Shown here in pieces: positions 1 through 20,239 of a stretch of 25,548 bases of DNA. Source of the DNA: a virus. Each line of letters starts with the position of its first letter. Positions within the stretch are counted from its first letter, which is position 1. The DNA is taken from IMG/VR virus record IMGVR_UViG_3300017714_000148, positions 1 to 25,548 of that record. One strand, given 5' to 3'. Position numbers and translations under genes: made by a program. Under the pieces are notes generated by a model that saw only the letters and a program-made list of their open reading frames with translations, was not told where the DNA came from and did not search any database.

Positions 1-1
1 C

Positions 2-901
2 AGTGAACTGATGGGCCGTGAATTACCTGTTGAACAGGTATCTGTAAATTGGCCTAACTGTAGAATTTATTACTTTTGGTCGGAGATGAGTCCCTTCGTT
101 GACTACAACGAACTGATCCGCACCTACTCGAAACAAACACAAGAGGTAAAACTCGCCCGTTTATACGGGATTCCTAGCAAGGCAATGGAGGGGAGATTCC
201 CTAAATTCTCAAGAGACACAAATGTCATACCCCATGAGAAAATCCCCTTCATTGCTGATGCTACCGTACCCTGCACTAGGTATTTTATATGTGACCCCGG
301 TGGTAGTAAACCTTGGGTAGCCACATGGATCGGAGTCTTGGAGGATGGTAGTATATATGTATACCGTGAGTTCCCTGACAGTACGATGGGAGCATGGGCA
401 TTACCTCATGTCAATGGAGTGGGAAAGAGTGTGGGTAAACCTGGTCCCGCACAGCGTCCACTTGGCTGGGGCTACACACAGTATAGGGATCACTTCTTGG
501 ATCTCGAGCAGGGAGAGGATATCTTTGAACGAATCGTTGACCCTCGAATGGGAGCAGCCACAGTGCGCGAGAAAGAGGGAGAGAGTAATATTATTAATAC
601 TATGGCAAACTTGGACTTTGTCATGCGACCTGCTCCCGGTGTGGATGTGGAAGCTGGCATTGCCAAGATAAATGATGCTTTGGCATGGGATGACACAGAA
701 CCAATGACAGAGTCAAATAGACCAAAAATCTTTGTGTCAGATAGATGTGAGAACTTTATAAGTTCAATGCTTGAATACACAGGCAGTTCCCGTCAGGAGC
801 ATTGGAAGGATATGGTTGACTGTATTAGATACTTCATGGTCAGTGGACCTGAGTATGTGACCAGCGGAAGCATCCAAGCCACAGGTGGTGGTGGATATTG
901 A
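2..901 (+). CDS. Terminase large subunit, C-terminal nuclease part (5' truncated by window edge)
   Basis: This is the motor/nuclease that cuts concatemeric DNA and drives it through the portal. The frame is open to the left edge, so the ATPase domain lies outside the window; the first in-window Met is at 11. Counting from that Met, the RNase H-like nuclease domain starts at about residue 90 with the strand motif FICDPGG (Asp95), followed by the beta hairpin around EDGSIYVYREFPD. The second acidic site is IVDPRMGA (Asp177) and the third is the helix DMVDCIRYFM (Asp267/Asp270). This order of Asp residues and the D-x-x-D-x-x-R-Y-F ending are typical of TerL. It lies just upstream of the portal gene, the usual order. 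I see no truncation other than the window edge. Confidence 0.9.
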   Translation, partial: SELMGRELPVEQVSVNWPNCRIYYFWSEMSPFVDYNELIRTYSKQTQEVKLARLYGIPSKAMEGRFPKFSRDTNVIPHEKIPFIADATVPCTRYFICDPGGSKPWVATWIGVLEDGSIYVYREFPDSTMGAWALPHVNGVGKSVGKPGPAQRPLGWGYTQYRDHFLDLEQGEDIFERIVDPRMGAATVREKEGESNIINTMANLDFVMRPAPGVDVEAGIAKINDALAWDDTEPMTESNRPKIFVSDRCENFISSMLEYTGSSRQEHWKDMVDCIRYFMVSGPEYVTSGSIQATGGGGY

Positions 902-914
902 TCTTGCCCTAATG

Positions 915-944
915 GCTACAAGTAGCTACATTATGCTACGCATA
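915..944 (+). repeat. Three 10-bp-phased GCTAC repeats upstream of the portal gene
   Basis: Three direct repeats start at 915, 925 and 935, each beginning GCTAC(A/G): GCTACAAGTA, GCTACATTAT and GCTACGCATA. The last runs into the portal ATG (944). The 10-bp period puts each copy on the same DNA face. A matching array lies upstream of the scaffold gene (3937-3976). There is no Shine-Dalgarno sequence between the array and the ATG. A promoter or regulator-binding role is inferred; the sequence shows only the repeat. Confidence 0.6.
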
Positions 945-3031
945 TGCAGTCTGCCGCAGATCCTGAATTACTATATGTCTCAAAAGAGCCTGATATTGCT
1001 TACTTAGCTGAAGCGTACAAGCGTACCCAAAGCGATTTAGGCGAATGGTTAGACCGCAGACAAAGAGATTATGATACCCGCCATTGTCATTGGTCAGGGC
1101 AATCAGATGATTTTAAGAAACATGCTTCTTTAAATTCCACAGGTGAGGTATTTCCCTGGGAAGGTGCAAGTGATCAGCAGGTAAGACTTTGCGATGAATT
1201 GATTTCCTGCCGGATTGCAATGAGCATGAATGCCATAAGACGTGCGCACATTGTAGCCACTCCCACAGAATCAAATGATGTGGAGCGTGCAAATGTGGTA
1301 AGTAACTTTTTACGATGGTTAATTAATTCCAAGATGGATGAATTTTATCCTGAAGTGGAACTTGGACTAAATCATTTCTTTGAGAAAGGCATGATGGTTC
1401 ATTACTGCTGGTATGAGAATAAGGAATTAAAACAACAGCAGACCATCAGTTTACAGGAGATTGCCCAGGCACTTCCACAGATTGCTTCGGCAATTCAGGA
1501 TGGCAGTATGGATGAGGAGTTAAGCGAAGCCCTTAAAGGACAGTTTAACATCAGTAAATCCAAAGCACGGGGAATGCTCAAAGAGATGCGCAAGGATGGT
1601 GAGACTACTATTCCTGTGACCCGTCAGGTGGTAAGCAGGCCCAAGATCAAAGCCCTTGCCCCAGATGAGGATGTGTTTTGGCCTAGTTATGCAATCGATC
1701 CGCAGGAAGCTCCTTATATGTTTCATGTGGTTTCGATGACTCCTGAACAATTAAGGTCTAAGATTAGTACCGAAAAATGGTCAGAAGAGTTTGTGGATGC
1801 AGCCATTGAGTTGGCAGGACAGGGAGAGGATGTGGATGAAAATATCTACCAACTCCGAGATGATGATAATTTTACCAGAAGTGATGATGATAGTCTTGTT
1901 AGAATTGTGTACTGTTATCAAAGACTGTTGGACGAGGATAATGTCCCCGGCATCTACTGTACCATTTACTCAAGTCATATATCTGATCTTTATGCCAAAC
2001 ATCAATTACTTGATTATGCACATGGCAAGTATCCATTTGTCGTAACCACTCTTGAAAAAACAAGTAAGAAACTTTACTCATCGAGATCATACCCAGAACT
2101 CATTGAAGGCTTGCAGCAGGTACTCAAGGTTGAAACAGATGGAGGCATTGACTCGCAATCGTTGGCAACTTTGCCACCAATCGAACACCCGCTTGGTCGC
2201 GCACCAAGTCGCTATGGTCCTGGGGTCAGGTTACCCTATCGCGTACCGGGCGAGGTAAGATTTGCATCCACTCCTAGAGGTTCCGTATCCAATGTAGAAC
2301 TTCGCAGATATATACAGGAGCAAGCAGATAGATACTTTGGTAGAAACGCACCTGGAGTAAATCCTGTGGAAGCACAGATGAAACAGCAGGAGGTAATAGA
2401 TAAAGTCTTTCACCACCTTAAACATGTGCTTGATCAAGTGTATTCACTTTACCAACAGTATGGTCCCGATCAGGAATACTTTAGAGTCACAGGAATGCAG
2501 GATATGCAGAAGTATTCCAAGGGTAATCCTAATGATCGTTTTGACTTTTATATGCAGTTTGATGCTGCCACTCAAGACCCTGAGCAAATGCTTGAAAGGG
2601 TGAATGCGATAGCCACACTTGGCGCGCAACTAGATAAGAATGGAACGCTTGATACTGAGCGATTACTACAGATTGCAGTTGGACAGATCATGCCAGGTGC
2701 AGCCGAAAGTGTTTTACTTCCCAAGGAGACTGCACAGGCAAAAGCAATGGATGAGGAAAGACAGACCATTGCAGAAATCTATGCAGGTGTACCTCCTAAT
2801 GTTAAACCCAATGATGCCCATGAGATGAAACTTCAAGTGTTTCAACAATGGTTACAGCAACCAGATGTGGCACAGAAGGTACAGGAAGATCCGGCATTAC
2901 AGGAGCGTATTCAGAATTATATGCAGCAAAGAAATATGCAGATCCAGCAAAAACAAAACGCTCAGATTGGAAGGCTAGGGGCCGCCCCTACACAGTTTGG
3001 GCAAACAGGATCAGCACCAACAGGAGGATAA
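944..3031 (+). CDS. Portal protein
   Basis: Portal (head-tail connector) of 695 aa; twelve copies would form the DNA entry/exit ring at one capsid vertex. Its position directly after terminase, its size and its composition support the call. An N-terminal helical part has the PWEGASDQQVR stretch near residues 65-75. An alpha/beta wing region (about 220-400) follows, then a helical stem with a run of basic residues, then a C-terminal Gln-rich coiled-coil tail (about 620-690). Size and layout resemble the large podovirus (P22/T7-type) portals more than the 400-500 aa siphovirus portals. The frame has a stop at 923 and the first Met is at 944, so the start is well fixed, although it has no Shine-Dalgarno sequence and sits at the end of a GCTAC repeat array. 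The stop overlaps a strong AGGAGG serving the next small gene. Confidence 0.88.
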   Translation: MQSAADPELLYVSKEPDIAYLAEAYKRTQSDLGEWLDRRQRDYDTRHCHWSGQSDDFKKHASLNSTGEVFPWEGASDQQVRLCDELISCRIAMSMNAIRRAHIVATPTESNDVERANVVSNFLRWLINSKMDEFYPEVELGLNHFFEKGMMVHYCWYENKELKQQQTISLQEIAQALPQIASAIQDGSMDEELSEALKGQFNISKSKARGMLKEMRKDGETTIPVTRQVVSRPKIKALAPDEDVFWPSYAIDPQEAPYMFHVVSMTPEQLRSKISTEKWSEEFVDAAIELAGQGEDVDENIYQLRDDDNFTRSDDDSLVRIVYCYQRLLDEDNVPGIYCTIYSSHISDLYAKHQLLDYAHGKYPFVVTTLEKTSKKLYSSRSYPELIEGLQQVLKVETDGGIDSQSLATLPPIEHPLGRAPSRYGPGVRLPYRVPGEVRFASTPRGSVSNVELRRYIQEQADRYFGRNAPGVNPVEAQMKQQEVIDKVFHHLKHVLDQVYSLYQQYGPDQEYFRVTGMQDMQKYSKGNPNDRFDFYMQFDAATQDPEQMLERVNAIATLGAQLDKNGTLDTERLLQIAVGQIMPGAAESVLLPKETAQAKAMDEERQTIAEIYAGVPPNVKPNDAHEMKLQVFQQWLQQPDVAQKVQEDPALQERIQNYMQQRNMQIQQKQNAQIGRLGAAPTQFGQTGSAPTGG

Positions 3032-3035
3032 GATT

Positions 3036-3128
3036 ATGGCACCGATGGGAAAGGGAACATACGGAACTAAGGTAGGTAGACCACCTAAGAAGAAAAAGAA
3101 AAAGTGTGGCAAGCGGAAGACCAAGTAA
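3036..3128 (+). CDS. 30-aa very basic phage peptide
   Basis: A 30-residue ORF preceded by AGGAGG (3022-3028, overlapping the portal stop) with ideal spacing. It starts MAPMGKGTYGTKVGRPPKKK and ends in a Lys/Arg-rich tail with one Cys. The MGKGTYG-x-K-x-GRPPKKK pattern is one I recognise from marine phage genomes, next to portal or capsid genes. The charge suggests it binds DNA or the acidic scaffold protein; that is inference. It overlaps the next gene by 23 nt in a different frame. Confidence 0.65.
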   Translation: MAPMGKGTYGTKVGRPPKKKKKKCGKRKTK

Positions 3129-3366
3129 AGTAAATAGCCCAAGGCGTATCCGCAAAGGTGAACCTGGTTATGGTAAGAAGAAGTTTGTAGTCCTAGCTTC
3201 TGAGGGTGGGAAGAAGAAGACTATCCGCTTTGGTGACGCAAATTTAAGTATTAAGAAAAGCCAACCTGCGCGCAAGAAGAGCTACTGTGCGAGATCAGGT
3301 GGTATCAAAGGAAAGAACACAAAACTTAGTGCCAACTATTGGTCACGCAAAGCATGGAACTGCTAG
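3106..3366 (+). CDS. Small basic phage protein, YWSxKxW family
   Basis: An 86-aa basic protein starting at GTG (3106), inside the end of the 30-aa gene; no in-frame ATG exists. The core KKKFVV...KKTIRFGDANLSIKK, the segment PARKKSYCARSGG and the ending SANYWSRKAW match a pattern widespread in marine tailed phages, where the usual forms are 'R-x-S-F-x-A-R' and 'ARYWSC-x-x-W'. It has three Cys residues (in YCAR, and the terminal NC, with others lost compared with the usual form). It is encoded between portal and scaffold and is probably virion- or prohead-associated. Molecular function is unknown. The GTG start and 23-nt overlap leave the N-terminus uncertain. Confidence 0.7.
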   Translation: MASGRPSKVNSPRRIRKGEPGYGKKKFVVLASEGGKKKTIRFGDANLSIKKSQPARKKSYCARSGGIKGKNTKLSANYWSRKAWNC

Positions 3367-3510
3367 ATGAGTCTATACAAAAACATTCACGCCAAAAGAA
3401 AGCGTATAAAAAAAGGTAGTGGTGAAAAGATGAGAAAGCCTGGATCTAAAGGCGCGCCCACTGCCAAGGCATTTAAGAAAGCAGCTAAGACAGCAAGGAA
3501 GCGTAAGTAA
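3367..3510 (+). CDS. 47-aa basic phage protein (MSLYxNIHAKRKRI family)
   Basis: Starts at the base after the previous stop (TAGATG) and reads MSLYKNIHAKRKRIKKGSGE, then KMRKPGSKGAPTAKAFKKAAK. I recognise this as a short family common in marine bacteriophages, nearly always beside portal, scaffold or capsid genes. It has over 35% Lys/Arg and no hydrophobic core, so it is probably a nucleic-acid or scaffold-binding peptide; the family function is not known to me. The stop overlaps the next start (TAATG), suggesting translational coupling. Confidence 0.75.
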   Translation: MSLYKNIHAKRKRIKKGSGEKMRKPGSKGAPTAKAFKKAAKTARKRK

Positions 3511-3581
3511 TGTGTCCCATCTGCAAAGAGAAGTCTATTGGATCGTATTGTTGGTCATGTTCTTCATCGAACGTAACGTAA
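3510..3581 (+). CDS. 23-aa double-CXXC zinc-knuckle-like peptide
   Basis: A 23-residue ORF whose ATG overlaps the preceding stop (TAATG). It begins MCPICKEK and continues GSYCWSC: Cys2, Cys5, Cys14 and Cys17, i.e. CPxC-8-CWSC, the spacing of a minimal zinc ribbon/knuckle. Its shortness is a reason for caution, but the coupled start, the four evenly placed Cys residues and the run of coupled small genes upstream favour a real peptide. No function can be assigned. Confidence 0.45.
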   Translation: MCPICKEKSIGSYCWSCSSSNVT

Positions 3582-3630
3582 TCATAGATACTTTATTCCT
3601 AGCCCTATCCCTAATTTACGAAAACTTTAA

Positions 3631-3867
3631 ATGAAGCTCAGAAAGACAAACCATGAAATCGATCAAGACGAAGCATTCCGAGCGCTGTCCGTTCTTAAAA
3701 ACGATCCTAACTTCAAAAGATATATTGAGTTGCGTGAAGCTATGCGTGAAGAAACCATTCGCGCGTTGCAGACTCCAGCGAACATTGAAAACTTAAACTT
3801 ACACTTTCATATTTCAGGGAAGCTTGAAGCAATAGATGAAGAGTTAGACAACTTTTACAAGCTTTAG
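3631..3867 (+). CDS. Hypothetical helical protein, 78 aa
   Basis: A charged, mostly helical protein (MKLRKTNHEIDQDEAFRALS... to ...GKLEAIDEELDNFYKL) with heptad-like Leu/Ile spacing in its C-terminal half, suggesting a short coiled coil. It is the last gene before the strong terminator at 3888 and follows the basic mini-genes. Small helical proteins of about 80 aa are common at this place between portal and scaffold in podovirus-like genomes, but I do not recognise a named family. No clear Shine-Dalgarno sequence precedes the ATG; the 49 bp upstream look non-coding. Confidence 0.65.
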   Translation: MKLRKTNHEIDQDEAFRALSVLKNDPNFKRYIELREAMREETIRALQTPANIENLNLHFHISGKLEAIDEELDNFYKL

Positions 3868-3887
3868 ACTTGGTGTGTGTGTTTATT

Positions 3888-3924
3888 AGCCTTCCGCGTT
3901 AGGGGTTTCGCGGAAGGCTTTTTT
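3888..3924 (+). terminator. Strong intrinsic terminator
   Basis: A perfect 11-bp stem, AGCCTTCCGCG (3888-3898) paired with CGCGGAAGGCT (3909-3919), has a 10-nt loop and is followed by a T-run. It lies 20 bp after the 78-aa gene and ends the portal/mini-gene transcript. Confidence 0.92.
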
Positions 3925-3936
3925 ATTGCCCTTCTC

Positions 3937-3976
3937 GCTACAATAGACTACATTTTGCTACACTAGGCTATTTATG
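3937..3976 (+). repeat. 10-bp-phased GCTAC repeats upstream of the scaffold gene
   Basis: Units start at 3937, 3947, 3957 and 3967: GCTACAATAG, ACTACATTTT, GCTACACTAG and GCTATTTATG. The first three units align with the array at 915-944 over about 30 bp. It lies between a strong terminator and the scaffold start, where a promoter must be, so promoter or activator binding is a reasonable inference. Confidence 0.6.
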
Positions 3977-3986
3977 CCTTGCTTTT

Positions 3987-5084
3987 ATGGAAACATTACA
4001 AGAAGGGGTTGTCTCAGAGTCCTCCGAAAATTCTGTGGATAGTTTAACGCAAAGTGAAGGTAACCTCACAATGGCAGAACTAGCATCAAATCTGATGAAA
4101 AGCCGCCAAGCCGAGGAAACTGAAACTGCCGATGAGGAACCTGAAGCCGCTGAAGAAACTGCGGAAGAAGAGGAACCAGAGGTACAGTCTGCTGAAGAGT
4201 CGGATGAATCAGATGAGGAATCAGATGAACCGCCCGTAGATCCTTCAGATGTTCTTTCTAAATATAATATAGACTTGGATTCATTATCCGAGGAGGATGC
4301 TAAGAACTTAGCTAAACAGTTAAATGCTTCTGCAATCAAGCGGTTTGGAAAGCTAACCGCACAGAAGAAAGCACTGCTGGCTGAGAATCAGGAGTTACAG
4401 CAACAAGTTGAGCAAGCACCCGTGCCTGCTGAATCACCTGCTTTCCTCAAGGATAATGCTCTGCATAACATAACTGATGTCAACGCACTGAATAAAGAAG
4501 TTGAGAACCTTAACACGCTCATTGAATGGGCAGATGAAGGGATGGAAAACGAAGTTGAGTACGATGACGCTGGTAATGAGTTTGTGGTCAAGGATGGGGA
4601 AAAGACTTATACAAAGTCTGATCTGAGGAGAATCAAAGCGAATGCAAAAAAGATACTTCGCAAAGATGCTCCTGCTCGACAAGCCTGGATAAAGGAACGT
4701 CAAGCAAGTGACCAACAAGCAGTCCAAACTTTTGAGTTCCTAAGTGATGGAGAAAGTGATGACTACAAGATGTTCATGCAGGTGAAGCAAAGCCCGCTTT
4801 ACAAGCCACTAGTTGATCACCTGCCCAATAGTAATTTTGCATTGGGACTTATGGTGGAAGGACTAAAGGCAGTGCAAGCCCGCCAAGCAAATGCAAGTCA
4901 ACCGAAGAAATTGAAGAAACCAACTGCTCCTGTTGCAAGTACTGAAGCAGGTGCGAGTAAACCAAGATCCGAGGGAAGTAAACATCAGAAAGCTCTACAG
5001 GCGGCTCATGCCAAGTTTGAGAAATCAGGCAATATAGCAGACTACCAAAATTACATAAAACTAAAGCGAGCAATCGTAAAATAA
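3987..5084 (+). CDS. Scaffold-like (capsid assembly) protein
   Basis: A 365-aa protein directly before the major capsid gene. Residues about 45-90 are an extremely acidic Glu/Asp/Ser stretch, then there is a helical/coiled-coil part with QKKALLAENQELQQQVEQ around residues 125-145, and a Lys-rich helical C-terminus ending HAKFEKSGN...YIKLKRAIVK. An acidic N-terminus plus helical middle plus short basic C-terminal capsid-binding segment is the usual scaffold layout. No protease motif is visible. The start is uncertain: ATG 3987 has no Shine-Dalgarno sequence, and in-frame Met29 (4071, MAELASN) is preceded by GAAGG at fair spacing. It probably forms its own transcript with the capsid gene after the 3888 terminator. 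Confidence 0.82.
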   Translation: METLQEGVVSESSENSVDSLTQSEGNLTMAELASNLMKSRQAEETETADEEPEAAEETAEEEEPEVQSAEESDESDEESDEPPVDPSDVLSKYNIDLDSLSEEDAKNLAKQLNASAIKRFGKLTAQKKALLAENQELQQQVEQAPVPAESPAFLKDNALHNITDVNALNKEVENLNTLIEWADEGMENEVEYDDAGNEFVVKDGEKTYTKSDLRRIKANAKKILRKDAPARQAWIKERQASDQQAVQTFEFLSDGESDDYKMFMQVKQSPLYKPLVDHLPNSNFALGLMVEGLKAVQARQANASQPKKLKKPTAPVASTEAGASKPRSEGSKHQKALQAAHAKFEKSGNIADYQNYIKLKRAIVK

Positions 5085-5113
5085 TAATTTAAAACAACAA
5101 GGAGGATATAGAT

Positions 5114-6079
5114 ATGGCTAAAGCCACTACTTACAATACTGCTGGAAATCGTGAAGATTTAACTTCGATTATTTCAGTGTTAGAACCAGAAGCGACACCG
5201 TTCGTTTCCATGATTAAAAAGGGAAAAGCAACCGGGACATTTTTCGAAACACAGGTCGATAAATTAAATTCCGTGGAATTTTCTGGAGTTGAAGAAGGTG
5301 AAGATGTTACCGCTTTCAAAAATCAATCTGCTGACCGTGCAAGAATTGGTAATTACGTCCAAAAGTTCCGCGATACGTTTATGGTCTCAGACTTGCAAGA
5401 GATGGTTGACACTGCTGGTGTCGCATCTGAGTTTGCAAATGCTGAGTCTAAAGCAGTTCGCAACATAAAACGTTCAATTGAATCTGCATTCTGTTCTTCA
5501 CAGGATCGTCAAGCAGACGCTGGTGCAGGTGCGCCTTACAAAACACGTGGTATGCTGAAATGGCTTGGAGTTGGTGGACAACCTTCCGACATCCCTGCCT
5601 TTGCACAGAATGTTGCTAATGACACCACAGGTACACAAACCGAAGCTACCTTTAATAGTGTTCTTCAAGAACTCTACGAAGCTAACGGAATGCCTGGTGG
5701 ACAGTTGACCTTACTTGCAGGCCCAAGCCTCAAGAAAGAGATCAGTAACTTCTCACGTCAGCTTGCAGCTACCAACGGAACTTACACTGTCAATCAAGAC
5801 GCTGACAGCAAAAAGATCACGCTTACAGTAAATGTTTACGAAGGTGACTTTGGTAATGTGGCAATCGTCCCATCTTTGTTCATTAATAGAACAAGTGGCA
5901 GTGACACAGTAGACGCAGACGCAGGACTCTTAATCGATCCTGAGTATGTATCCATGATGTCCTTGAAAGCTGAGTCTGTTACCGAGCTTGAGAATCAAGG
6001 TGGTGGTCGCAGAGGTTTCGTAGACGTAGTAGCCGGACTTGCCTGCTTGTCTCCAAAAGCTCACGGATATTTTAATTAA
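5114..6079 (+). CDS. Major capsid protein (SU10/DUF5309-type, HK97 fold)
   Basis: A 321-aa protein behind a textbook Shine-Dalgarno sequence (AAGGAGGA at 5099-5106). The start region TYNTAGNREDLTSIISVLEP followed by EATPFVSMI is the signature of the SU10-like major capsid family (formerly DUF5309): 'GNRE(D)L...I..I.P..TPF'. The middle VQKFRDTFMVSD and the C-terminal MMSLKAESVTELENQGGGRRGFVDVVAGL (given here in part) fit the HK97-fold P-domain and A-loop regions. Position after the scaffold gene and before a small beta protein is the standard head order. It is probably the most expressed gene here. I see no N-terminal delta domain in it; scaffold is separate. Confidence 0.92.
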   Translation: MAKATTYNTAGNREDLTSIISVLEPEATPFVSMIKKGKATGTFFETQVDKLNSVEFSGVEEGEDVTAFKNQSADRARIGNYVQKFRDTFMVSDLQEMVDTAGVASEFANAESKAVRNIKRSIESAFCSSQDRQADAGAGAPYKTRGMLKWLGVGGQPSDIPAFAQNVANDTTGTQTEATFNSVLQELYEANGMPGGQLTLLAGPSLKKEISNFSRQLAATNGTYTVNQDADSKKITLTVNVYEGDFGNVAIVPSLFINRTSGSDTVDADAGLLIDPEYVSMMSLKAESVTELENQGGGRRGFVDVVAGLACLSPKAHGYFN

Positions 6080-6106
6080 TAATACTTAACATAAGGAGAT
6101 TAAGAT

Positions 6107-6535
6107 ATGTCAGAATTATCAAATAATGAAGCAGGTAGAGGTTTCACGCATGTGTACACCGCTACTTACGAAGACCTTCAAACAATTGGCAACGCTGGAC
6201 AGTTGACCATCGCAACTATACCCGCAGGTGGTGCAGTTGAGTTGGCAGGTGTGTACGAAGCTGAAGCATTTGCAGGTACAACCTCTCTAGTCATTGACGT
6301 GGGAACAAGCTCTGGAGATCCTGATGAGTTCATCGATGCTCTTGATGTGGACGGTATGTCCGCTCCCGTGTTCAATACAGGAGATGCATTCACAGGCGGT
6401 CAGTCCCAGCCTGTAGGTGGAACAAACACTGCGACTTCTATTATCTTGGAAGTCACCGATGCCGCTATCGCATCCGCAACTGCTGGTAAAATAGTGATCG
6501 GGTTACGTATCGTTGACCTTGGTCAATTTGCTTAA
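6107..6535 (+). CDS. Small beta-rich virion protein (possible head decoration)
   Basis: A 142-aa protein with Shine-Dalgarno AAGGAGA at 6094-6100. It is almost all short beta strands with Gly/Thr/Ala (QLTIATIPAGGAVELAGVY..., TSLVIDVGTSSGDPDEFI..., KIVIGLRIVDLGQ). The layout 'IPAGA-x-V-x-x-V-x...F.G..S..IDVG' is seen in small capsid-associated or fibre proteins encoded directly after capsid genes. Decoration protein is my preferred reading, but a head fibre or neck component cannot be excluded. It is followed by a hairpin that may end or attenuate the capsid transcript. Confidence 0.65.
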   Translation: MSELSNNEAGRGFTHVYTATYEDLQTIGNAGQLTIATIPAGGAVELAGVYEAEAFAGTTSLVIDVGTSSGDPDEFIDALDVDGMSAPVFNTGDAFTGGQSQPVGGTNTATSIILEVTDAAIASATAGKIVIGLRIVDLGQFA

Positions 6536-6551
6536 TCGCAATTAGGATTTG

Positions 6552-6584
6552 GGGAGTGGTCTGCGTAGCGGGTCACTCCCTTTT
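6552..6584 (+). terminator. Terminator-like hairpin after the capsid genes
   Basis: GGGAGTG (6552-6558) pairs with CACTCCC (6574-6580). Including G-U pairs, the stem extends to about 13 bp with a 3-nt loop, followed by only four T residues. It may terminate or partially attenuate, giving more capsid than neck mRNA. Confidence 0.6.
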
Positions 6585-6599
6585 CCACATCAATTTATA

Positions 6600-6956
6600 A
6601 TGTCAGAAATATTTATACCGAAGTGGAGCAAGGCCGAAGGCAATGGTTCGCAATTCATGAAAAACTTAGAGAAGCATCTTCGTTACGAGGTGGATCTTGA
6701 AAAGTACGAAGCTAAGAAACGCGAGATTGAAGTGGGTCAAGAGAACCAACAAGGCAATCAAGTGGACGGTCTAGGGCAGTTAAAGGCAAGTATACCTGCC
6801 CGTGAATATTTCAGATGGGAACAGTTCAAGCCAGGATGTTGGGGTGATAAACAATTTGTCAACGAGATGCTTCGTGACAATCCGGCATTCAAAGCAAAGT
6901 CATTAAATAAGAAGACCTTCGTTCAGGGAGGTTTTGATAAACCTAGTTTCGCATGA
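6600..6956 (+). CDS. Hypothetical phage protein, 118 aa (neck/head region)
   Basis: The ATG at 6600 ([16 protein letters not shown]) is preferred. An upstream in-frame TTG at 6549 would place coding sequence inside the hairpin at 6552-6584. The N-terminus is charged and helical; the C-terminal half carries [20 protein letters not shown] followed by [11 protein letters not shown], a pattern I have seen in other marine phages at this position but with no known function. The stop overlaps the next start (ATGA), so it is translationally coupled to the connector-like gene. Its position suggests a structural or assembly role. Confidence 0.7.
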
Positions 6957-7789
6957 GACAAATAGCAGTAAGCACCATGTTGACCAACTTAGTAAGTATG
7001 GTTGGCGTGGACAGTTTTCTTACTGCTGAAAACACAGCGGCAGTACGGAGCTTTAATCGCTTTGGTAAATTAGCATGGGACCGTACAAGCTGGCCTTTTG
7101 CGTCCCGCTTATCCCAAGTAATACCTGATGTCCGGGTAAGAAGTGTGCAGGTAGGTAGTGGAGGAAGTGGATACACATCTGCCCCTACGGTAGCCTTTAG
7201 CGGAGGTGGAGGAAGTTCTGCGGCTGCAACTGCCACAATTAATTCAGACGGACAGGTAAACGGAGTGGCTGTGACCAACAATGGCACAGCATTTACATCT
7301 GCACCTACCGTGTCATTTAGTGGCGGTAGTGGAAGTGGGGCAACAGCCACAGCAAATCTGCTCACCTATATAGACTTTGGTACAACTATATCCGAGATAT
7401 TTAGGGTCACAGAAAATGATCCCTACGGTAGTGGGACCACAAGTGATCAGGCATTTAAAAATATCTACGCCACAGGTGGTAGTGTATATGGTGAGGCCAT
7501 CCTGCCGGATCGCAGTTCCACCTCTCCTGTATGGGTATACTACCGCGCACCATATCCAGAGTTTGCGAGTGGAGCGAGTGACTTCCCCTATGTATTCAGT
7601 GAATACGCAACAGTAGGCGCTTATGGGGACTGGCTTTCTAGTGATGGTCAATTGGACAAAGCACAGGTCATCTATCAGCAAGCAGAATCAATTTTACAAA
7701 GCGAGTTGGACAAACTCGAAAGACAAGAGGGTCAAGTAAACCCAATACAATTTATAACCTACGGCACAACTGCCGTTTCAACAGCATAG
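6953..7789 (+). CDS. Head-tail connector-like protein with inserted beta repeats
   Basis: A 278-aa protein coupled to the gene before it. Residues 1-60 are helical ([17 protein letters not shown]) and residues about 136-278 contain [20 protein letters not shown] and a C-terminal helix pair ([21 protein letters not shown]..., [17 protein letters not shown]). These flanks look like neck/adaptor proteins that sit under the portal. Between them, residues about 63-135 hold two copies of a Gly/Ser-rich beta unit: [20 protein letters not shown] and [20 protein letters not shown]. Such 'GYTSAPTV-x-F-SGG' units are common in phage surface and tail proteins. The adaptor call rests on gene order and the flanks, and the insertion is plainly visible. 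Confidence 0.68.
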
Positions 7790-7795
7790 AATATT

Positions 7796-8062
7796 ATGGC
7801 ATCATCAAACGAATATAGAGGTTTAGGACTCAATGGTGGGATTTACATTAATGATACTGCCGCGAAGACTAACAGTAATGGATGGTTTGCTATCGTGGCA
7901 ACTGAGGACACTGTTATCGACAGCATCACAAGCAATGTGGATAACCTGAGTGATATAACAGCATCCCAGGATAATACCACTTTGGCTGCAAACACAGCAA
8001 TTTACGGAAACATATCTGCGGTCACTTTAGCGAGTGGTGCAGTAATAGCGTACAACATTTAA
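7796..8062 (+). CDS. Small structural-type protein, 88 aa
   Basis: An Ala/Thr/Asn-rich beta protein: YRGLGLNGGIYINDTAAKTN near the start, then DTVIDSITSNVDNLSDITA and a C-terminal LASGAVIAYNI. This layout (a Gly-rich start, 'F.AI...EDT.I', and an ending 'ltAGavIAYN') is typical of short phage neck or fibre-associated proteins. There is no clear Shine-Dalgarno sequence; the start is 6 bp after the preceding stop. The exact role is unknown. Confidence 0.62.
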   Translation: MASSNEYRGLGLNGGIYINDTAAKTNSNGWFAIVATEDTVIDSITSNVDNLSDITASQDNTTLAANTAIYGNISAVTLASGAVIAYNI

Positions 8063-8063
8063 A

Positions 8064-8273
8064 GTGCTATCGCTCGATCTCAACGTAGGAACACCGCGAC
8101 CCTTCACATCAGGTGGAGTCCCTAGTCCTGACGGAGTCCTACGCACAGAGAATGGGCGATTCATCATTACTGAGAATGGAGACTTCATCGAGTTTGAACT
8201 GCCACCTTTCCTAACCACTGAGGCCGATGAGGTCTTACGAACAGAATTAAACGAAGCAATCTTAACCGAATAA
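8064..8273 (+). CDS. Small protein with repeated T-E-N-G motifs, 69 aa
   Basis: A GTG start at 8064, one base after the preceding stop, is the only start, because the frame has stops at 8043-8048 and no ATG. The middle has a short internal repeat: LRTENGRFI then ITENGDFIEFE, and the C-terminus has LTTEADEVLRTELNEAILTE. Short 'LLTEDGxxI'-type repeats are common in phage virion accessory proteins. It sits between two structural genes with intergenic gaps of 1 and 4 bp. I cannot name a function. Confidence 0.55.
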   Translation: MLSLDLNVGTPRPFTSGGVPSPDGVLRTENGRFIITENGDFIEFELPPFLTTEADEVLRTELNEAILTE

Positions 8274-8277
8274 TAAA

Positions 8278-8886
8278 ATGGCGAATCTTAAAATCACTCA
8301 ACTCTCAAATCTGGCATCTCCAGCAGGTGCTGATGTTTTACCTATCGTGGATGACGTTGCAGGAACCGCGACCACCAAAAAGGTAACCGTTACAAATTTA
8401 ATGACACTCGCCCCGCAAGGCGATTTAGTCGCAAGCAACAATCTAAGCGATGTGGCAAATGCGGGAACATCCCGCACAAACCTCGGACTCGGAGATGCGG
8501 CTACCAAGACAGTCGGAACAGCCGACACCAATGTCATCGCGGTAGCGAGCGGAACGGTAGACTTGGGAGGCAATAAACTTGAAGACTTTGACGCATCGAT
8601 TAACGATCAAACGGGAACAGCCTACACGCTCTTAGCGGGAGACAATGGCAAGGTTGTGGTACTTAATAACGGGTCTGCGATTACACTGACTGTTCCTAGT
8701 GGCCTAGGTGTAGGTTTTAACTGCACAGTCGTACAAAAGGGAGCGGGGCAAGTGACATTCACAGCAAGTTCAACAACCATAAATAATCGCCAATCGCATA
8801 CGAAAATTGCGGGACAGCATGGAGTCGCAAGCATTTGTGCGATAGTAGCTGACACCTTTGTTCTAGCGGGTGACACAGCTTCCTAA
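8278..8886 (+). CDS. Tail-fibre-like protein
   Basis: A 202-aa protein. The N-terminus MANLKITQLSNLASPAGADV followed by LPIVDD...T.K.T...L is the usual attachment-type start of short tail fibres. Residues about 55-80 contain NNLSDVANAGTSRTNLGLGD, the classic fibre repeat 'NNLSDVANAaTARtNLGLG'. The C-terminal half is a beta domain (TLLAGDNGKVVVLNNGSAITLTV...) ending in a Cys-containing strand, as in many fibre head domains. It is shorter than typical podovirus fibres and may be a fibre base or small head spike. It precedes the LamG-like protein, so the two may form one adhesion apparatus. Confidence 0.75.
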   Translation: MANLKITQLSNLASPAGADVLPIVDDVAGTATTKKVTVTNLMTLAPQGDLVASNNLSDVANAGTSRTNLGLGDAATKTVGTADTNVIAVASGTVDLGGNKLEDFDASINDQTGTAYTLLAGDNGKVVVLNNGSAITLTVPSGLGVGFNCTVVQKGAGQVTFTASSTTINNRQSHTKIAGQHGVASICAIVADTFVLAGDTAS

Positions 8887-8891
8887 GTCCG

Positions 8892-9644
8892 ATGACTTTT
8901 ATCTTACCTAGTTTCGGAGCATCGGCTATATCCGCAGTACCTGGTGGTGGTGGGTTTAGTAACGATTATTCGCTTAGCTACGATGGCTCTGATGATAATA
9001 CTCAAGTCACAGGACTAAGTTTATCGGGTGCTACGAGTTTTTCCATGTGGTTTAATGCTCAGGAAAGCGTAAGCGGGAAAATATTTTCATTGCTTGAGCA
9101 ACAGCCAACGAGTTTATCATTTGATCTTGGAGTCGGTAAATTTAGGGTTTATCTCTACGATGGAAGCGCTTATGACGCTGGTGCTGGTGGCTTCATGGAG
9201 AATCAGTCTACTTTTACACCAACAATTTATCAATGGTATCACTTGGCTGTGACTTATGACGGCTCAATTAACCCTACGGGACTAAAAACTTACATTAATG
9301 GAAATTTGACAACGCCTGTGTCAAATGCAAGAAGCTCAACCAATTTTACTTCATTTAACACGGGGCCTAGTAAAAATTTTGAGATAGGTGCGAGAACGGG
9401 AAACAGTCGATACAATCAGCAACTGATGGACGAGGTTGCTATTTTTAATTCTGAATTATCAGCTACCAATATTTCGGACATTTATAATAGCGGTGCGCCT
9501 ACAGACATATCTTCGCTAAGTCCTATCGCGTGGTGGAGAATGGAGGAAGGATCAGGGACTAGCGTAGTGAACACAGCTAACAGTGGAACCTACGACGCTA
9601 CTTTGGTCAACGGCCCAACCTTTTCGTCAACTGTTCCAACTTAA
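8892..9644 (+). CDS. LamG/concanavalin-A-like lectin-fold virion protein
   Basis: A 250-aa protein. Residues about 23-205 show the jelly-roll lectin pattern: YSLSYDGSDDNTQVTGLSLS, SFSMWFNAQ, FSLLEQQ, WYHLAVTYDG, LKTYINGNLT and FEIGARTG, then MDEVAIFNSELSATNISDIYNSG, which is the characteristic end of LamG-like domains. A C-terminal IAWWRMEEGSGTSVVNTANSG begins what resembles a partial second copy. A carbohydrate-binding, receptor-recognition role is inferred from the fold and from its position after a fibre-like gene. It lacks a long N-terminal shaft, so it probably attaches through another fibre protein. Confidence 0.82.
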   Translation: MTFILPSFGASAISAVPGGGGFSNDYSLSYDGSDDNTQVTGLSLSGATSFSMWFNAQESVSGKIFSLLEQQPTSLSFDLGVGKFRVYLYDGSAYDAGAGGFMENQSTFTPTIYQWYHLAVTYDGSINPTGLKTYINGNLTTPVSNARSSTNFTSFNTGPSKNFEIGARTGNSRYNQQLMDEVAIFNSELSATNISDIYNSGAPTDISSLSPIAWWRMEEGSGTSVVNTANSGTYDATLVNGPTFSSTVPT

Positions 9645-9650
9645 AATAAT

Positions 9651-9893
9651 ATGAGCAGAAAATATGTAATTATAGATGCGGATGAAGTAGCTTCCGTTGA
9701 CTTTAGCCAAGTGGCAGAAACGAGTGCCAACACAGTAAGATACAATGTCTACCCTGCTGGCACGAAAACATTCGTAAAGTTTGACGGTGACACGCCTTCA
9801 TTCTTGGAAGGTAAAACTCAATACTCGCACTCCGAAATTCTCACAATTCTAGCGGGGCCTGAGTGGACAGATCCAAACGCTGGTCCTGAATGA
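9651..9893 (+). CDS. Hypothetical phage protein, 80 aa
   Basis: A short mixed alpha/beta protein (MSRKYVIIDADEVASVDFSQ ... FVKFDGDTPSFLEG ... SHSEILTILAGPEWTDPN). The pattern 'MSR.YVII.A.EV..VDFS.V.ETS..T.R...' is familiar to me as a small protein in phage fibre/lysis regions, with no known function. The stop overlaps the next start (ATGA), linking it to the lipoprotein gene. Confidence 0.65.
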   Translation: MSRKYVIIDADEVASVDFSQVAETSANTVRYNVYPAGTKTFVKFDGDTPSFLEGKTQYSHSEILTILAGPEWTDPNAGPE

Positions 9894-10333
9894 CGCGAGG
9901 CTTTATAATACTTATGCTAATCAGCCTGACAGGATGTTCGATACGATCCCTAGTAACCCCCGCCACAACGGTTGGCGGTGCGGCTTTGGGTGGTGTCGTA
10001 GGTCCAGGTGGAGCGGCATTGGGAGCAGGGGTAGGTTATGCTGGTGGAAAGATCTACGAGCTAACGGATGCGAATGAGGAGTTAGTGGACTCAATTACAC
10101 ACGGAGATGTGCAAGGTTTAGTGACGGCTGGACTAGCACAGCACCAAACAGGCTTTGAGAAATTCACAAGCACTGTGAAGAAGATCCTGATAGGAGCCGC
10201 AGTATTGCTCGCCGGATACTTAGCCATTCCGATCTTCATCGCAAAACGAACTGCTCAAAACTGCTCGAAGACAGAAGCGATTAAGCACCAAACCCGCGCA
10301 CCATTCCCTCCCAAACCAAGCACTCCAAAATGA
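9890..10333 (+). CDS. Lipoprotein with glycine-zipper and C-terminal membrane helix (candidate unimolecular spanin)
   Basis: A 147-aa protein. The N-terminus MTRGFIILMLISLTGC is a lipoprotein signal with lipobox LTGC (Cys16, +2 Ser). Residues about 26-57 are glycine/alanine-rich (glycine-zipper-like), about 60-95 are soluble, and about 104-124 form a hydrophobic helix (ILIGAAVLLAGYLAIPIFIA), followed by a basic, Pro-rich 20-residue tail. A lipobox plus a C-terminal membrane helix in one chain is the topology of unimolecular spanins, which join outer and inner membranes to finish lysis of Gram-negative hosts. Two tiny membrane proteins follow, with coupled starts, supporting a lysis cassette. 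Alternatives are a 17-kDa-antigen-like surface lipoprotein or a superinfection-exclusion protein. Confidence 0.6.
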   Translation: MTRGFIILMLISLTGCSIRSLVTPATTVGGAALGGVVGPGGAALGAGVGYAGGKIYELTDANEELVDSITHGDVQGLVTAGLAQHQTGFEKFTSTVKKILIGAAVLLAGYLAIPIFIAKRTAQNCSKTEAIKHQTRAPFPPKPSTPK

Positions 10334-10446
10334 GAAACTTAGAACTTTTAAGAGATAAATTTTTAGACCTTTCGAAAAAAGGAAAAATGATAACGGTATT
10401 TGTCGGGCTAGTCGTTGGCATCATAATCTTGGATTTACTGTTCTAA
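10330..10446 (+). CDS. 38-aa single-pass membrane peptide
   Basis: The ATG overlaps the lipoprotein stop (ATGA). The first 19 residues are charged (MRNLELLRDKFLDLSKKGK), followed by one hydrophobic helix MITVFVGLVVGIIILDLLF to the C-terminus. Its size, topology and place between the lipoprotein and the next membrane peptide suggest a lysis-cassette component such as a holin or antiholin partner. No family is recognised. Confidence 0.6.
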   Translation: MRNLELLRDKFLDLSKKGKMITVFVGLVVGIIILDLLF

Positions 10447-10595
10447 TGATCGACCGAACCTCAATATTTGGTATGGGTGGTACATTAGCCACTTTTGGTA
10501 TCTCACAATTAGATAGTCTATTCGGATGTATAGCTGGAGTAATTACTATCATTTACATGGGCAAAAAACTTTACCAAGAAACTAAGAAAAAGTGA
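10446..10595 (+). CDS. 49-aa membrane protein, holin-like
   Basis: The ATG overlaps the preceding stop (TAATG). Two hydrophobic segments lie at about residues 6-20 (SIFGMGGTLATFGIS) and 24-39 (SLFGCIAGVITIIYMG), then a basic tail KKLYQETKKK. Short two-helix proteins with a lysine-rich C-terminus ('...I..IIYM..K.YK..KK') are typical class II phage holins, so holin is my preferred reading. It lies between the spanin-like lipoprotein and the tail nozzle gene; no endolysin gene is adjacent. Confidence 0.6.
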   Translation: MIDRTSIFGMGGTLATFGISQLDSLFGCIAGVITIIYMGKKLYQETKKK

Positions 10596-10596
10596 A

Positions 10597-12243
10597 ATGG
10601 CACGATATCGCACATCTGGCAGACTCGATGATCAAATCCTCACAGACGGGGATCGTGGATTTCGTGGTATCAATTCACATTTAGAACAGACAAGCTTAGA
10701 GGGTGGGTTCGTACAGACTAGCGAGAATATGCGCCTGTCTGGCGATCTTGCAGAAACCCGCAAAGGAATAGACTTTTTAGCAGGCAGTGTAACACTAAGC
10801 TACAACGGCACAGATGAGCGTGTGTTTGCCAGCACTTTATTCAGTGACCCAGCCACAGGCACAGAGTTTGTAGTGGCAGCCACCAAGACAAAAGCAATCA
10901 TTTGGAACGATGCAAATAATAGTGGTATCGCTATAGATTATCCTGGTGGTGAGATAGTCGCAGAAGCAGACAATGCAAGCTTTGTACAATCACTTGAGAA
11001 GCTAATTTTGTTTCGTGGCAAGGACAAGACACCGCTCGAATGGGATGGTAATTACAGCAGTCCTACAGACTTTGTAGTCAAAGCAAATGGAAGCCCAGGT
11101 GCAGGACGCATACAATGTCCAAACACAGACTATGGTGTATTCTTTAGGAATCGTTTAATTATACCGCAACCCACAGATAGTAATTATACAATCTTAATGT
11201 CTGACTTATTGGACACAGATAATTACTACGCTGCTGAATCACAATTTAGAATAAATAAAGGAAGTGCAGATAAACTAGTAGGATTTTTTCCTTACCAAGA
11301 AGATCAGTTAATCGTGTTTATGCGTAACAGCATCCACATGATTAACAATATTGCGACTACCTCCGCAGCCAACACTTACGAGATCACAAGACAGCATGGA
11401 TGTGTGTCCCGTAAATCAATCGCACAGTCTGGACCACAAACATTCTTCCTGTCTGACAATGGAGTAATAGTATTATCTCCCGGTACAGATCCAGGAAAAG
11501 GGCTTGGCGTGGCAATTAGTAAAATAAGTGGTGAGACAGTACCCATGACCCGCCCCATACAGGATCAGTTTGATGATCCTAATGATGGAATAAACTACGC
11601 AGCAGCAGACAAATCATGTGGTGTGGTGTATGACAATAAATACTATCTTGCTGTACCCACAGGTAGTTCAACAGTTCCCAATGCAATATTTATATTCAAC
11701 CTCCTGACCAACACCTGGACAAGCGTTGACTCCTACCCAGCAATGGCAGGCAGTGCGGCATTTCATGTAGATGACTTTGTGATTTGCTCGCACGGATCTG
11801 TACCAACAAGACGCAGACTATTCGCATGTAACAAAACAGGTTGGTACTTGATGGAAGAAAACTCCATTGATGATAGTGGACGAAAAATAGGCAGCACAAG
11901 CGAGTCAGGCACAACTGCAATCGCAGGTAAGTTAGTGTCTCGATCCTTTACCTTTGGAGACATAGGAGTAAAGAGTTGGAGACGTGGACAGGTAGGCGCA
12001 AACACAGTTAATGCTGATGCCTTTAATATTAAGGTCAATACCCTTGACCCGGACTCAAGCACTACCGTTCTTACCCACACCGCAGATGGCACAGAGGAAG
12101 CACTGTTTAGATTTGGTACAGGTCGTACCCGTGGCTATGGGGCAAGTATAGAAATAAATGTCACAGCGGGAAGACCGAGCTTTAGACATTTAAGCTTAGA
12201 AGCAATAGGAGTAGGAGCAAATGCAAGAAGAGAGGTGGCATAA
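10597..12243 (+). CDS. Tail nozzle / tubular protein B-like (beta-propeller)
   Basis: A 548-aa protein starting one base after the holin-like gene. The N-terminus ITSHLE-type stretch (RGFRGINSHLEQTSLEGGFV) and SENMRLSGDLAETRKGIDFL are followed by repeated beta blades with aromatic motifs: QLIVFMRNSIHMINN, ITRQHGCVSRKSIAQSG, TFFLSDNGVIVLSP, YDNKYYLAVP, FNLLTNTWTSVDSYP. This propeller-like pattern ('G.vS..si...g..v.FLS..GV..l' and 'n..YyLAvP......n..iviFN..t..W') is characteristic of podovirus nozzle/stabilisation proteins such as T7 gp12 and P22 gp10. It would close the tail tip and hold packaged DNA. The stop overlaps the next start. Confidence 0.82.
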   Translation: MARYRTSGRLDDQILTDGDRGFRGINSHLEQTSLEGGFVQTSENMRLSGDLAETRKGIDFLAGSVTLSYNGTDERVFASTLFSDPATGTEFVVAATKTKAIIWNDANNSGIAIDYPGGEIVAEADNASFVQSLEKLILFRGKDKTPLEWDGNYSSPTDFVVKANGSPGAGRIQCPNTDYGVFFRNRLIIPQPTDSNYTILMSDLLDTDNYYAAESQFRINKGSADKLVGFFPYQEDQLIVFMRNSIHMINNIATTSAANTYEITRQHGCVSRKSIAQSGPQTFFLSDNGVIVLSPGTDPGKGLGVAISKISGETVPMTRPIQDQFDDPNDGINYAAADKSCGVVYDNKYYLAVPTGSSTVPNAIFIFNLLTNTWTSVDSYPAMAGSAAFHVDDFVICSHGSVPTRRRLFACNKTGWYLMEENSIDDSGRKIGSTSESGTTAIAGKLVSRSFTFGDIGVKSWRRGQVGANTVNADAFNIKVNTLDPDSSTTVLTHTADGTEEALFRFGTGRTRGYGASIEINVTAGRPSFRHLSLEAIGVGANARREVA

Positions 12244-12554
12244 TGGCGATTACCTGCACAGTGACCCGTGGTTTTACATACGCGACCGGGGTGGATATTT
12301 CCGCAGCCAATCTCAATCAGTTGGGCGAACCAACCGTAACCGTTCCAGATGTGACGGACACAACCGTAGTGCTGAAGAGTTTTGCAGTTGCGGGTCTTCC
12401 TTCTGCTGGTACTGCGGGAAAAGTGGTTTACTGCACCAACGGGGACGGAGGAAGTCCATGCCTCGCAGTAGACAATGGTTCAGCGTGGTTACGAGTAAAC
12501 CTGGGCAGTGCAGTGAGCGCAACTGATGCAGACGAATATTTAACCGCAGAATAG
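12243..12554 (+). CDS. Small tail-associated protein, 103 aa
   Basis: Coupled to the nozzle gene by TAATG. It is a beta-rich protein beginning MAITCTVTRGFTYATGVDIS, then AANLNQLGEPTVTVPDV; the C-terminal half has GKVVYCTNGDGGSPCLAV and DNGSAWLRVNLGSAV, resembling a small fibre-like beta fold with 'A..Nqlg.PTv' and 'vvY..dgddG.PcLA..dG..W'. Probably a virion accessory or small fibre protein. Function not established. Confidence 0.65.
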   Translation: MAITCTVTRGFTYATGVDISAANLNQLGEPTVTVPDVTDTTVVLKSFAVAGLPSAGTAGKVVYCTNGDGGSPCLAVDNGSAWLRVNLGSAVSATDADEYLTAE

Positions 12555-12555
12555 C

Positions 12556-12927
12556 ATGAGCAACATTCCTAAAGTAATAAAAATAAAAGACCCCAAAACT
12601 TTTCAGTTAGTTTCAAAACTAGCAGAAGAGGATAATGACAATATGAATATGCCTACCCATGCGGTAGTCAAAGGAGACGATATAGTGGGCGGTTGGAACT
12701 TATGCGAAGTACCAATGGTATTGCTGTGGCATCATTCAAAAAAAGTCGGAGCAAAAGATTCTTTAATTTTAAATCAAATACAGGAAAGCATGTTATCCGA
12801 GAAAGGTGTGGACCAGGCATTTATTGCGTGTAATTCGCACAGTCCTTACCAAAAGCACATGGAACACTTCGGATTTAAACCTGTTTGGCCTACTAACATT
12901 TTCTACAAAAACTTACCAAAAATCTAG
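12556..12927 (+). CDS. GNAT-acetyltransferase-like protein in the tail region
   Basis: A 123-aa alpha/beta protein. Strands THAVVKGDDIVGGWNLCEVP and the helix around LILNQIQESMLSEKGV precede FIACNSHSPYQKHMEHFGFK followed by PVWPTNIFYKNL. The central 'hAVV.dd.ivG.w.l' strand pair, the following helix and the late 'h..FGF' segment fit a reduced GNAT fold, and similar proteins occur in structural clusters of marine podoviruses. The acetyl-CoA loop (Q/R-x-x-G-x-G/A) is not clearly present, so enzymatic activity is doubtful; a structural or assembly role is possible. Confidence 0.6.
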   Translation: MSNIPKVIKIKDPKTFQLVSKLAEEDNDNMNMPTHAVVKGDDIVGGWNLCEVPMVLLWHHSKKVGAKDSLILNQIQESMLSEKGVDQAFIACNSHSPYQKHMEHFGFKPVWPTNIFYKNLPKI

Positions 12928-12939
12928 GAGACACTAATT

Positions 12940-15108: not shown

Positions 15109-15109
15109 C

Positions 15110-16159
15110 ATGGCAAGAAAACCATTCTTTTCAGGTAATTACGGAAGCGCACTAAGCTCTAACGCCAATGCCGCTAATCTCATCGCCAGGGCAGGGCAAA
15201 GCCAAGGGCAAATGTTTGCCAATCTCGGCGGTCAGATCGGAGGCATGATACAGCAGTACGGGTTGAATAAGGAGAAGCAGGGCAAATTAACTGATAAAAT
15301 TGAAAATCGGCTCAAGTTAGATCCAAGCATTGCGCAACGTTTGACAATGTCTGGCGATGAAGAATTTGATAAAAAGAATGCAACTGACATGGAAAAGCTC
15401 ACTAGCGGTGAACTTGGATTGAAAGGTTTACAAAGACTAGACAGTGCAATGGCAACGATCAATGAAGTTGATCTCCTCAAACAAGCAGAAGAGGATCGCG
15501 AAATGAAAAAGTCTGCGTTTCAGTTATCGCAACTGACACAGCAATTATCAAATGATAACGCTAAACTGCGTAAAGAAATTGCTGAAACTGAAAAGGCATA
15601 TCAAAAAGATATAATAAAGAAAGATTTGGATAATAAACAAAGCCTTATTGATTATAGAAATGCTGCCACTCTTAGTATGTTTTTTAAACAAAATAACCTT
15701 CCTGCAACTGTTTCTAAAGAAGGAGAAAAAAGATATTCTGAAATAATGAATCTATTTCCAAAGCTTGATGATACAAAAATTAAAGTTATGACCAAAGGAG
15801 CTTTAGGCACAGGAGTTTTTGCTGAAGAAAAAGAAATCCCTTATTCAGAGTACAAGGAAAATCCTAATGATTATGCACCTCTTGTTTCAGATCAAGTTAA
15901 AGGACTGCAAATGCGAGAGAACGCATTAAATGAAGAGTTATCACAATTAACCTTAAACGCTCGTATCCCATTTACAAATAATGACACAGGCGATCAAGGG
16001 ATGACAACCGTTCGTGAAATGTTAGAATTTCAAAAACAAAGTAAAAATAATACACCAACAAAACCACAAAGTATGCCACTTGGGGAAGAGGACATAATGA
16101 TACTTGATCAACCAGGCACAACAATAGGAGTACCTCAAGTACCAACTTTTATTAGATAA
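15110..16159 (+). CDS. Internal virion protein (ejection type), 349 aa
   Basis: The N-terminus MARKPFFSGNYGSALSSNAN, then Ala/Gln-rich GQMFANLGGQIGGMIQQYGL, leads to a long charged helical region (residues about 60-165: DREMKKSAFQLSQLTQQLSN, RKEIAETEKAYQKDIIKKDL) predicted to be coiled coil. The C-terminal third is less structured (PTKPQSMPLGEEDIMI...). Size and place, between a 722-aa and a 1256-aa helical protein, parallel the T7 gp14-gp15-gp16 series of core/ejection proteins. Sequence alone does not show a family. Its stop overlaps the next start (TAATG). Confidence 0.62.
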   Translation: MARKPFFSGNYGSALSSNANAANLIARAGQSQGQMFANLGGQIGGMIQQYGLNKEKQGKLTDKIENRLKLDPSIAQRLTMSGDEEFDKKNATDMEKLTSGELGLKGLQRLDSAMATINEVDLLKQAEEDREMKKSAFQLSQLTQQLSNDNAKLRKEIAETEKAYQKDIIKKDLDNKQSLIDYRNAATLSMFFKQNNLPATVSKEGEKRYSEIMNLFPKLDDTKIKVMTKGALGTGVFAEEKEIPYSEYKENPNDYAPLVSDQVKGLQMRENALNEELSQLTLNARIPFTNNDTGDQGMTTVREMLEFQKQSKNNTPTKPQSMPLGEEDIMILDQPGTTIGVPQVPTFIR

Positions 16160-19929: not shown

Positions 19930-19940
19930 CGTGAAATCTT

Positions 19941-19972
19941 AAGGTATTTCATAGTACCTTTTCTTTTCTTTT
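19941..19972 (+). terminator. First of two tandem terminators after the structural operon
   Basis: AAGGTA (19941-19946) pairs with TACCTT (19955-19960) across an 8-nt loop, followed by TTCTTTTCTTTT. The stem is short and weak alone, but a stronger terminator follows 12 bp later. Confidence 0.55.

Positions 19973-20008: not shown

Positions 20009-20239
<231 letters not shown>

Follow-up and report, generated by a model that had tools for sequence, protein, structure and literature searches.

A conserved pair of predicted late promoters with a putative phage-specific control site before the portal and scaffold genes of a phage family

The closest described counterparts of the locus studied here are promoters that are bound by a protein between their -35 and -10 elements. 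Two protomers of the Q protein of phage 21, which has a sigma-region-4-like fold, bind direct repeats between the -35 and -10 of the late promoter (PMC6606751), and in Caulobacter a palindrome between the -10 and -35 of the GTA promoter is the target of GafZ, whose HTH is sigma-like (PMC11150451). A published Verrucomicrobia phage genome paper makes no mention of promoters (PMC4642752), and in the literature we found no earlier description of a phage-specific, fast-changing control site together with unusual message starts.

The locus lies in 25,548 nucleotides of an IMG/VR virus record (IMGVR_UViG_3300017714_000148, positions 1 to 25,548; the window) and resembles the phage 21 Q-binding element in having repeats or a palindrome within a late-promoter spacer. 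However, its repeats extend onto the -10 and the start region, with one unit on each, they are in 10-bp phase, compared with a distance of 8 bp for the tested C:G pairs at -21 and -13 (PMC6606751), and each genome has two promoters of this kind. Among the window proteins scanned there was no Q homologue, and the third repeat unit reads TACACT at about -2 to +4, upstream of the usual place of Q-type pause -10-like elements. The likeness to the GTA promoter and its GafY and GafZ proteins is that a palindrome lies in the spacer and that the element itself codes for an HTH protein, joined in some relatives by one of the sigma-r4 type, whereas no IHF site is known here and the HTH protein has an OB-fold tail. 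We note these likenesses and do not claim membership in the phage 21 Q or GafY/GafZ system. Compared with a sigma70 promoter, the locus has the same TTGCCC-N17-TACATT core, conserved and within the 16-18 bp separation of the hexamers, and the phage adds lineage-specific repeats in the spacer and, across the start region, a conserved TGCTAC[AG]. As in leaderless phage mRNAs, the portal ATG directly follows the predicted start region without a Shine-Dalgarno sequence, but here the portal message stands beside a conserved structured leader on the sister scaffold transcript.

Layout and conservation of the two promoters

Array 2 (3937-3976) consists of four units, GCTACAATAG, ACTACATTTT, GCTACACTAG and GCTATTTATG, in exact 10-bp phase, and precedes the scaffold ATG at 3987; the first three are true CTACA repeats, and the fourth has CTA alone in common with them. 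Array 1 consists of three CTACA-type units at 915-940, before the portal gene. Without gaps, array 1 (915-944) and array 2 were identical at 21 of 30 positions, or 29 of 41 counted from the -35 onward. The window had two instances of three CTACA copies in 10-bp phase with at most one mismatch, whereas 300 first-order shuffles had none (mean, 0.00; maximum, 0), which bears out the match between four phased units and the upstream array made in the original prediction. No other 5-mer of the window formed such an array of three anywhere along its length. In the window and ten long relatives (11 phage genomes), 28 of the 45 CTACA pairs within 40 bp were spaced 10 bp apart, against a mean of 2.5 for permuted 5-mers, and 10 bp was by far the commonest spacing of neighboring copies. 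A further pair with this spacing, CTACACATGACTACA at 21261-21275 on the plus strand, overlaps the ATG (21267) of a small ORF and is also present in relatives G007 and G009. Separately, TACACTTAGCTACA was observed at a third genome place in four relatives, within a coding region or close to one. Four unrelated viral contigs (L166, L167, L199 and L209) had long, perfect tandem arrays of GCTACA decamers, which do not belong to the phage promoter system.

Both arrays occupy the same promoter frame on the plus strand: a -35 TTGCCC, a 17-bp spacer and a -10 TACATT, each hexamer being weak (4/6 matches). In the scaffold promoter these elements are at 3926-3931, 3932-3948 and 3949-3954, and in the portal promoter they are at 904-909, 910-926 and 927-932. 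Unit 1 lies in the spacer at one and the same offset from the -35, as GCTACAATAG (3937-3946), presumed to be part of an operator, and as GCTACA (915-920). The -10 falls inside unit 2 of array 2 (3947-3956) and is itself unit 2 of array 1, and unit 3 follows as GCTACA (3957-3962) and GCTACG (935-940). Because of these positions in the frame, unit 2 is best read as the -10 box and unit 3 as the start region; unit 4 would be the 5' arm of an mRNA stem-loop. Transcription from sigma70 promoters is expected to start 6-8 nt downstream of the -10. The starts predicted here are at about 938-940 for portal and, from the -10 spacing, at about 3960-3962 for scaffold. The promoter type is ordinary, with a sigma70-like core, and both arrays would be host-sigma70-like promoters. 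A generic promoter scan of positions 1-20000 listed neither of them, since each hexamer matches at only four of six positions, and it returned fewer sites than in shuffles; such scanning is uninformative for this window.

To the left of array 2, an intrinsic terminator (3888-3924, plus strand), with an 11-bp stem in 3888-3919 and a T run, ends the portal unit. Its fold of -20.9 kcal/mol (z, -4.3) was equaled by no shuffle, in agreement with the strong terminator originally noted there, and its G-rich 3' arm and T run were kept upstream of scaffold in relatives. The portal-like gene (944-3031, plus strand) was assigned by position, and the scaffold-like gene (3987-5084, plus strand), encoding an acidic protein of 365 aa, was assigned by its position before the capsid gene and by composition; neither product had a Pfam or PHROG match. 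The major capsid gene (5114-6079, plus strand) matched SU10_MCP (Pfam PF17236; E, 1.8e-60). An Rfam search of the window gave no match.

We compared the regions that precede the portal and scaffold orthologues of IMG/VR contigs. The shared frame was TTGnCn, 17 bp, TAnnnT, 1-2 bases and then TGCTAC[AG] or TGTAAC, and it was found before portal at 161/172 loci and before scaffold at 231/237 loci (duplicates included), the latter with TTG[CT/A]C fixed 17 bp before the -10. Of the distinct scaffold promoters of the CTACA type (n = 59), 13 had CTAC[AG] at unit 1, 53 had it at unit 2 and all 59 had it at unit 3 (as GCTACA in the window), while 38 retained the CTA of unit 4. The -10 offset held TACA or TACG in 57 of these 59 and in all 16 distinct TAAGG-type scaffold promoters, and GCTAC[AG] was present at a +0 or +1 offset in all 39 distinct CTACA-type portal promoters. 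Before the orthologous genes of close relatives, where a lack of the repeat would have refuted the original prediction, units 2 and 3 were found in essentially all cases. In the ten long relatives and the window, all 14 matches to TTG[ACT]C-N18-TA[CT]AnT were at portal or scaffold and none was away from these genes, as in phage late-promoter sets, in which one motif stands before several structural operons and not elsewhere. This supports the promoter that had been postulated at array 2 to match the one before portal. The late-promoter element first proposed is therefore largely right as a conserved promoter pair, but not as one homogeneous repeat or activator site, since unit 2 is read as the -10, unit 3 as the start region and unit 4 as part of a stem-loop in the transcript, and only 13/59 distinct scaffold promoters retain unit 1.

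Spacer repeats and the candidate regulator

While units 2 and 3 were conserved, unit 1 was not, and the spacer repeats differed by lineage. Direct CTACA units occupied the spacer in the window and in G007, the spacers of portal promoters in many close relatives had CTACATTA..TAATGTAG (CTACAT..ATGTAG type), a further group had TGTAAGG..CCTTACA in both promoters (the TAAGG group), and other lineages had GTCAA-type palindromes. These repeats were perfect palindromes of 6-9 bp or exact 10-bp repeats. The run shared by the portal and scaffold spacers of one genome was 5.20, compared with 4.50 ± 0.14 for shuffled partners (0/5000 shuffles), in a test that takes no account of phylogeny; without the TAAGG group the effect was weak (4.75 versus 4.46; p, 0.03). 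In the scanned genomes, TGTAAGG..CCTTACA and CTACA..TGTAG were confined to these promoters, save for one TAAGG match in a coding stretch of G003. Because the spacer repeats are more alike within a genome than between genomes, they suggest that the two promoters of a genome are recognized by a single phage factor, and the pattern is what would be expected of a trans-acting factor coevolving with its sites.

The explanation that we consider probable is that these are matched late promoters, at which host RNA polymerase carrying the housekeeping sigma factor would recognize TTGCCC, 17 bp and TACATT, and that the CTACA units over the spacer, the -10 and the start region are the predicted site of a phage-encoded DNA-binding regulator. 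This regulator, which may be an activator, a repressor or an antiterminator, would switch both head-gene transcription units together and would probably also control its own operon. The promoter layout, its conservation, its near-exclusive placement, the repeat type common to both promoters and the leader stem-loop can be read from the sequences compared, and we infer from such data the use of sigma70, the transcription start sites, the binding of a regulator and its sign. Overall, the data argue for a real late-promoter pair with a phage-specific control site, conserved in hundreds of related marine phages.

The strongest alternative is a core promoter and nothing more: units 2 and 3 would serve the polymerase of this host as a good -10 and a favored place to start, unit 1 and the palindromes would be coincidental, and the array would have no dedicated reader. 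Such a promoter would account for the conservation of units 2 and 3 next to the 13/59 of unit 1, and CTACA-ATG also occurs before some early genes of relatives, so that it may be a general phage start context. However, palindromes and 10-bp repeats that vary by lineage and yet are common to both promoters of a genome would be unexpected, and the motif is not used by the host. We regard this alternative as unlikely.

As the candidate regulator we propose, as a guess with a real but minority chance of being correct, the protein of 142-154 aa whose gene heads the operon containing the terminase gene (the HTH-OB protein; located at 773-1231 in L087, with orthologues in relatives). The window, being a fragment, does not include this gene. 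In many relatives its promoter had CTAC[AG] pairs in the same 10-bp phase directly before the ATG, which would make it a third member of the CTACA promoter set, the set thus comprising two or three promoters; the original prediction missed this member because its gene is located beyond the window. No TAAGG operator was present at the HTH-OB promoter of the TAAGG lineage. An AlphaFold2 model (mean pLDDT, 83.5; pTM, 0.42) had four N-terminal helices (local pLDDT, ~90), a coiled segment and an OB-fold tail. Pfam matches to Xre-like (E, 0.046) and HTH_3 (E, 0.063) were both below the cutoff, and a PDB profile search with the HTH-OB alignment gave nothing significant. In Foldseek, IF-1, eIF1A and S1 domains were near the top for the tail, with IF-1 and eIF1A at probability 1.0 and E values of 3e-3 or weaker. 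Homology to IF-1 was not supported by sequence (hhalign probability below 1%), and the modeled tail appears to resemble IF-1/S1-like OB folds in fold only. The recognition helix varied with the operator class (TVRLAFS, TARMAFS, SFRMNLS and TMRTCVH), an association that covers about four lineages and has one counterexample, L155. This contig (IMGVR_UViG_3300002930_000543) is an apparent recombinant with a window-type portal promoter and an HTH-OB protein of another helix class. Two small window proteins (21394-21642, minus strand; 22233-22421, plus strand) looked ribbon-helix-helix-like by eye and had no significant Pfam match.

A further alternative, which we take as a serious rival even though its probability is rather low, is that the spacer is a loading site for an antitermination factor, which would bind repeats or a palindrome between the two hexamers and then travel with the polymerase, as the precedents of phage 21 Q and GafZ would suggest. 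In some relatives the HTH-OB gene is followed, within its operon, by a gene for a Sigma70_r4 protein (E, 1.7e-7; G001, 14716-15198; G005, 23059-23517; also L121, L155 and L260), which could be an antiterminator or an activator, and the OB-fold part of the HTH-OB protein resembles NusA as well as S1 domains. However, most relatives lack the sigma-r4 gene, G007, the closest of the long ones, among them, and no strong terminator was evident in the window between the scaffold promoter and about 19.9 kb. Additionally, the 10-bp units lie on one helix face, whereas the two 21Q protomers contact different faces.

Transcript 5' ends and translation starts

The two promoters would give rise to messages of different kinds. 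In all relatives the portal ATG was 0-6 nt after CTAC[AG], so the portal message is predicted to have no leader or almost none. The leader of the scaffold message, of about 25 nt, contains a putative 5' stem-loop (3965-3979, plus strand), in which AGGC (3965-3968) pairs across a loop with GCCT (3976-3979) and which overlaps unit 4 of the array. A stem of 4-6 bp was present in 55 of 57 distinct scaffold leaders, with a fixed start and an end 4-9 nt before the ATG; of the other two leaders, one was shortened by an upstream ATG and one had a 3-bp stem. Compensated stems were AGGC/GCCT, AGGTA/TACCT with a T-G intermediate, ACGC/GCGT and AGCG/CGCT, with loops of 3-8 nt, and the covariation score was reached by 4/500 shuffles in a MAFFT alignment of 20 scaffold leaders. 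It is this covariation that carries the case for the stem, the single-sequence fold being unremarkable against shuffles (z, -0.1 to -0.7). The compensatory changes and the variable loop length speak for a hairpin in the RNA and against a DNA site that is bound by a protein. No Shine-Dalgarno sequence was found at portal or scaffold, while the capsid gene has AGGAGG. A regulator acting at two levels, with its HTH on the fast-evolving operators and its IF-1-like OB fold aiding the ribosome to start on leaderless or hairpin-capped late messages that lack Shine-Dalgarno sequences, seems improbable to us.

Host, integration and distant relatives

A 46-bp attP (20131-20176, plus strand) is an exact match to the 3' part of tRNA-Lys(CTT) and adjoins the gene for an integrase of the tyrosine recombinase type (20240-21196); a tRNA scan of the window found no tRNA, because only this 3' part is present. 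With an integrase and an attP, the phage looks temperate. Exact matches to the 46 bp were found in 7 genomes among 84,980 bacterial and archaeal genomes, all of them marine Opitutales or other Verrucomicrobia, and since the attP is identical to the end of their tRNA-Lys(CTT), the hosts are probably marine Opitutales or other Verrucomicrobia. A prophage search by capsid alignment in 84,980 bacterial genomes found none. The host tRNA-Lys promoters were of the same kind as the phage core (TTGACC...TACTTT). In seven host genomes the full promoter pattern was no more common than a reversed control, and in one host genome CTACA preceded 2/362 genes and was not enriched; CTACA as a general host signal was rejected on these grounds. 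In that one genome, Shine-Dalgarno-like sequences were rare (7%, compared with 33% in the phages).

These data also bear on the idea that the site belongs to a host regulator, such as an SOS-type repressor, which the phage exploits for induction. The apparently temperate lifestyle and the known control of late promoters by hosts in general would fit this idea, but the site differs in sequence from one close phage lineage to the next, with the inferred hosts all in one group, and the promoter pattern is not enriched in host genomes, so we find it very unlikely. Chance or low-level repeat expansion without function, for which the tandem GCTACA decamers of other origin in unrelated viral contigs offer a parallel, is hardly credible given the shuffle statistics, the conservation over hundreds of loci and the fixed offset from both the -35 and the ATG.

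The distant isolated relative C75C1 (OQ984151.1; L329), with a capsid 43% identical, had no CTACA pair in an 18.5-kb stretch. Just ahead of its likely portal ATG stands a TATAAT, and there may be a small hairpin in front of the likely scaffold gene (about 5050-5087, 7400-7460). With this TATAAT but without a CTACA pair in C75C1, the CTACA element seems to be particular to the phage family of the window, and the promoter layout may be older than the CTACA repeats.

Little is known about gene timing in marine Verrucomicrobia phages. Here, the comparison of many uncultured phages led to a putative late set of two or three promoters, a likely host and a concrete candidate regulator. The absence of a Shine-Dalgarno sequence at portal and scaffold, against a strong one at capsid, raises the question of how the two types of transcript are translated. 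The lineage-wise change of the presumed control site, common to both promoters within a genome, resembles the operator diversity that underlies the immunity groups of temperate phages.
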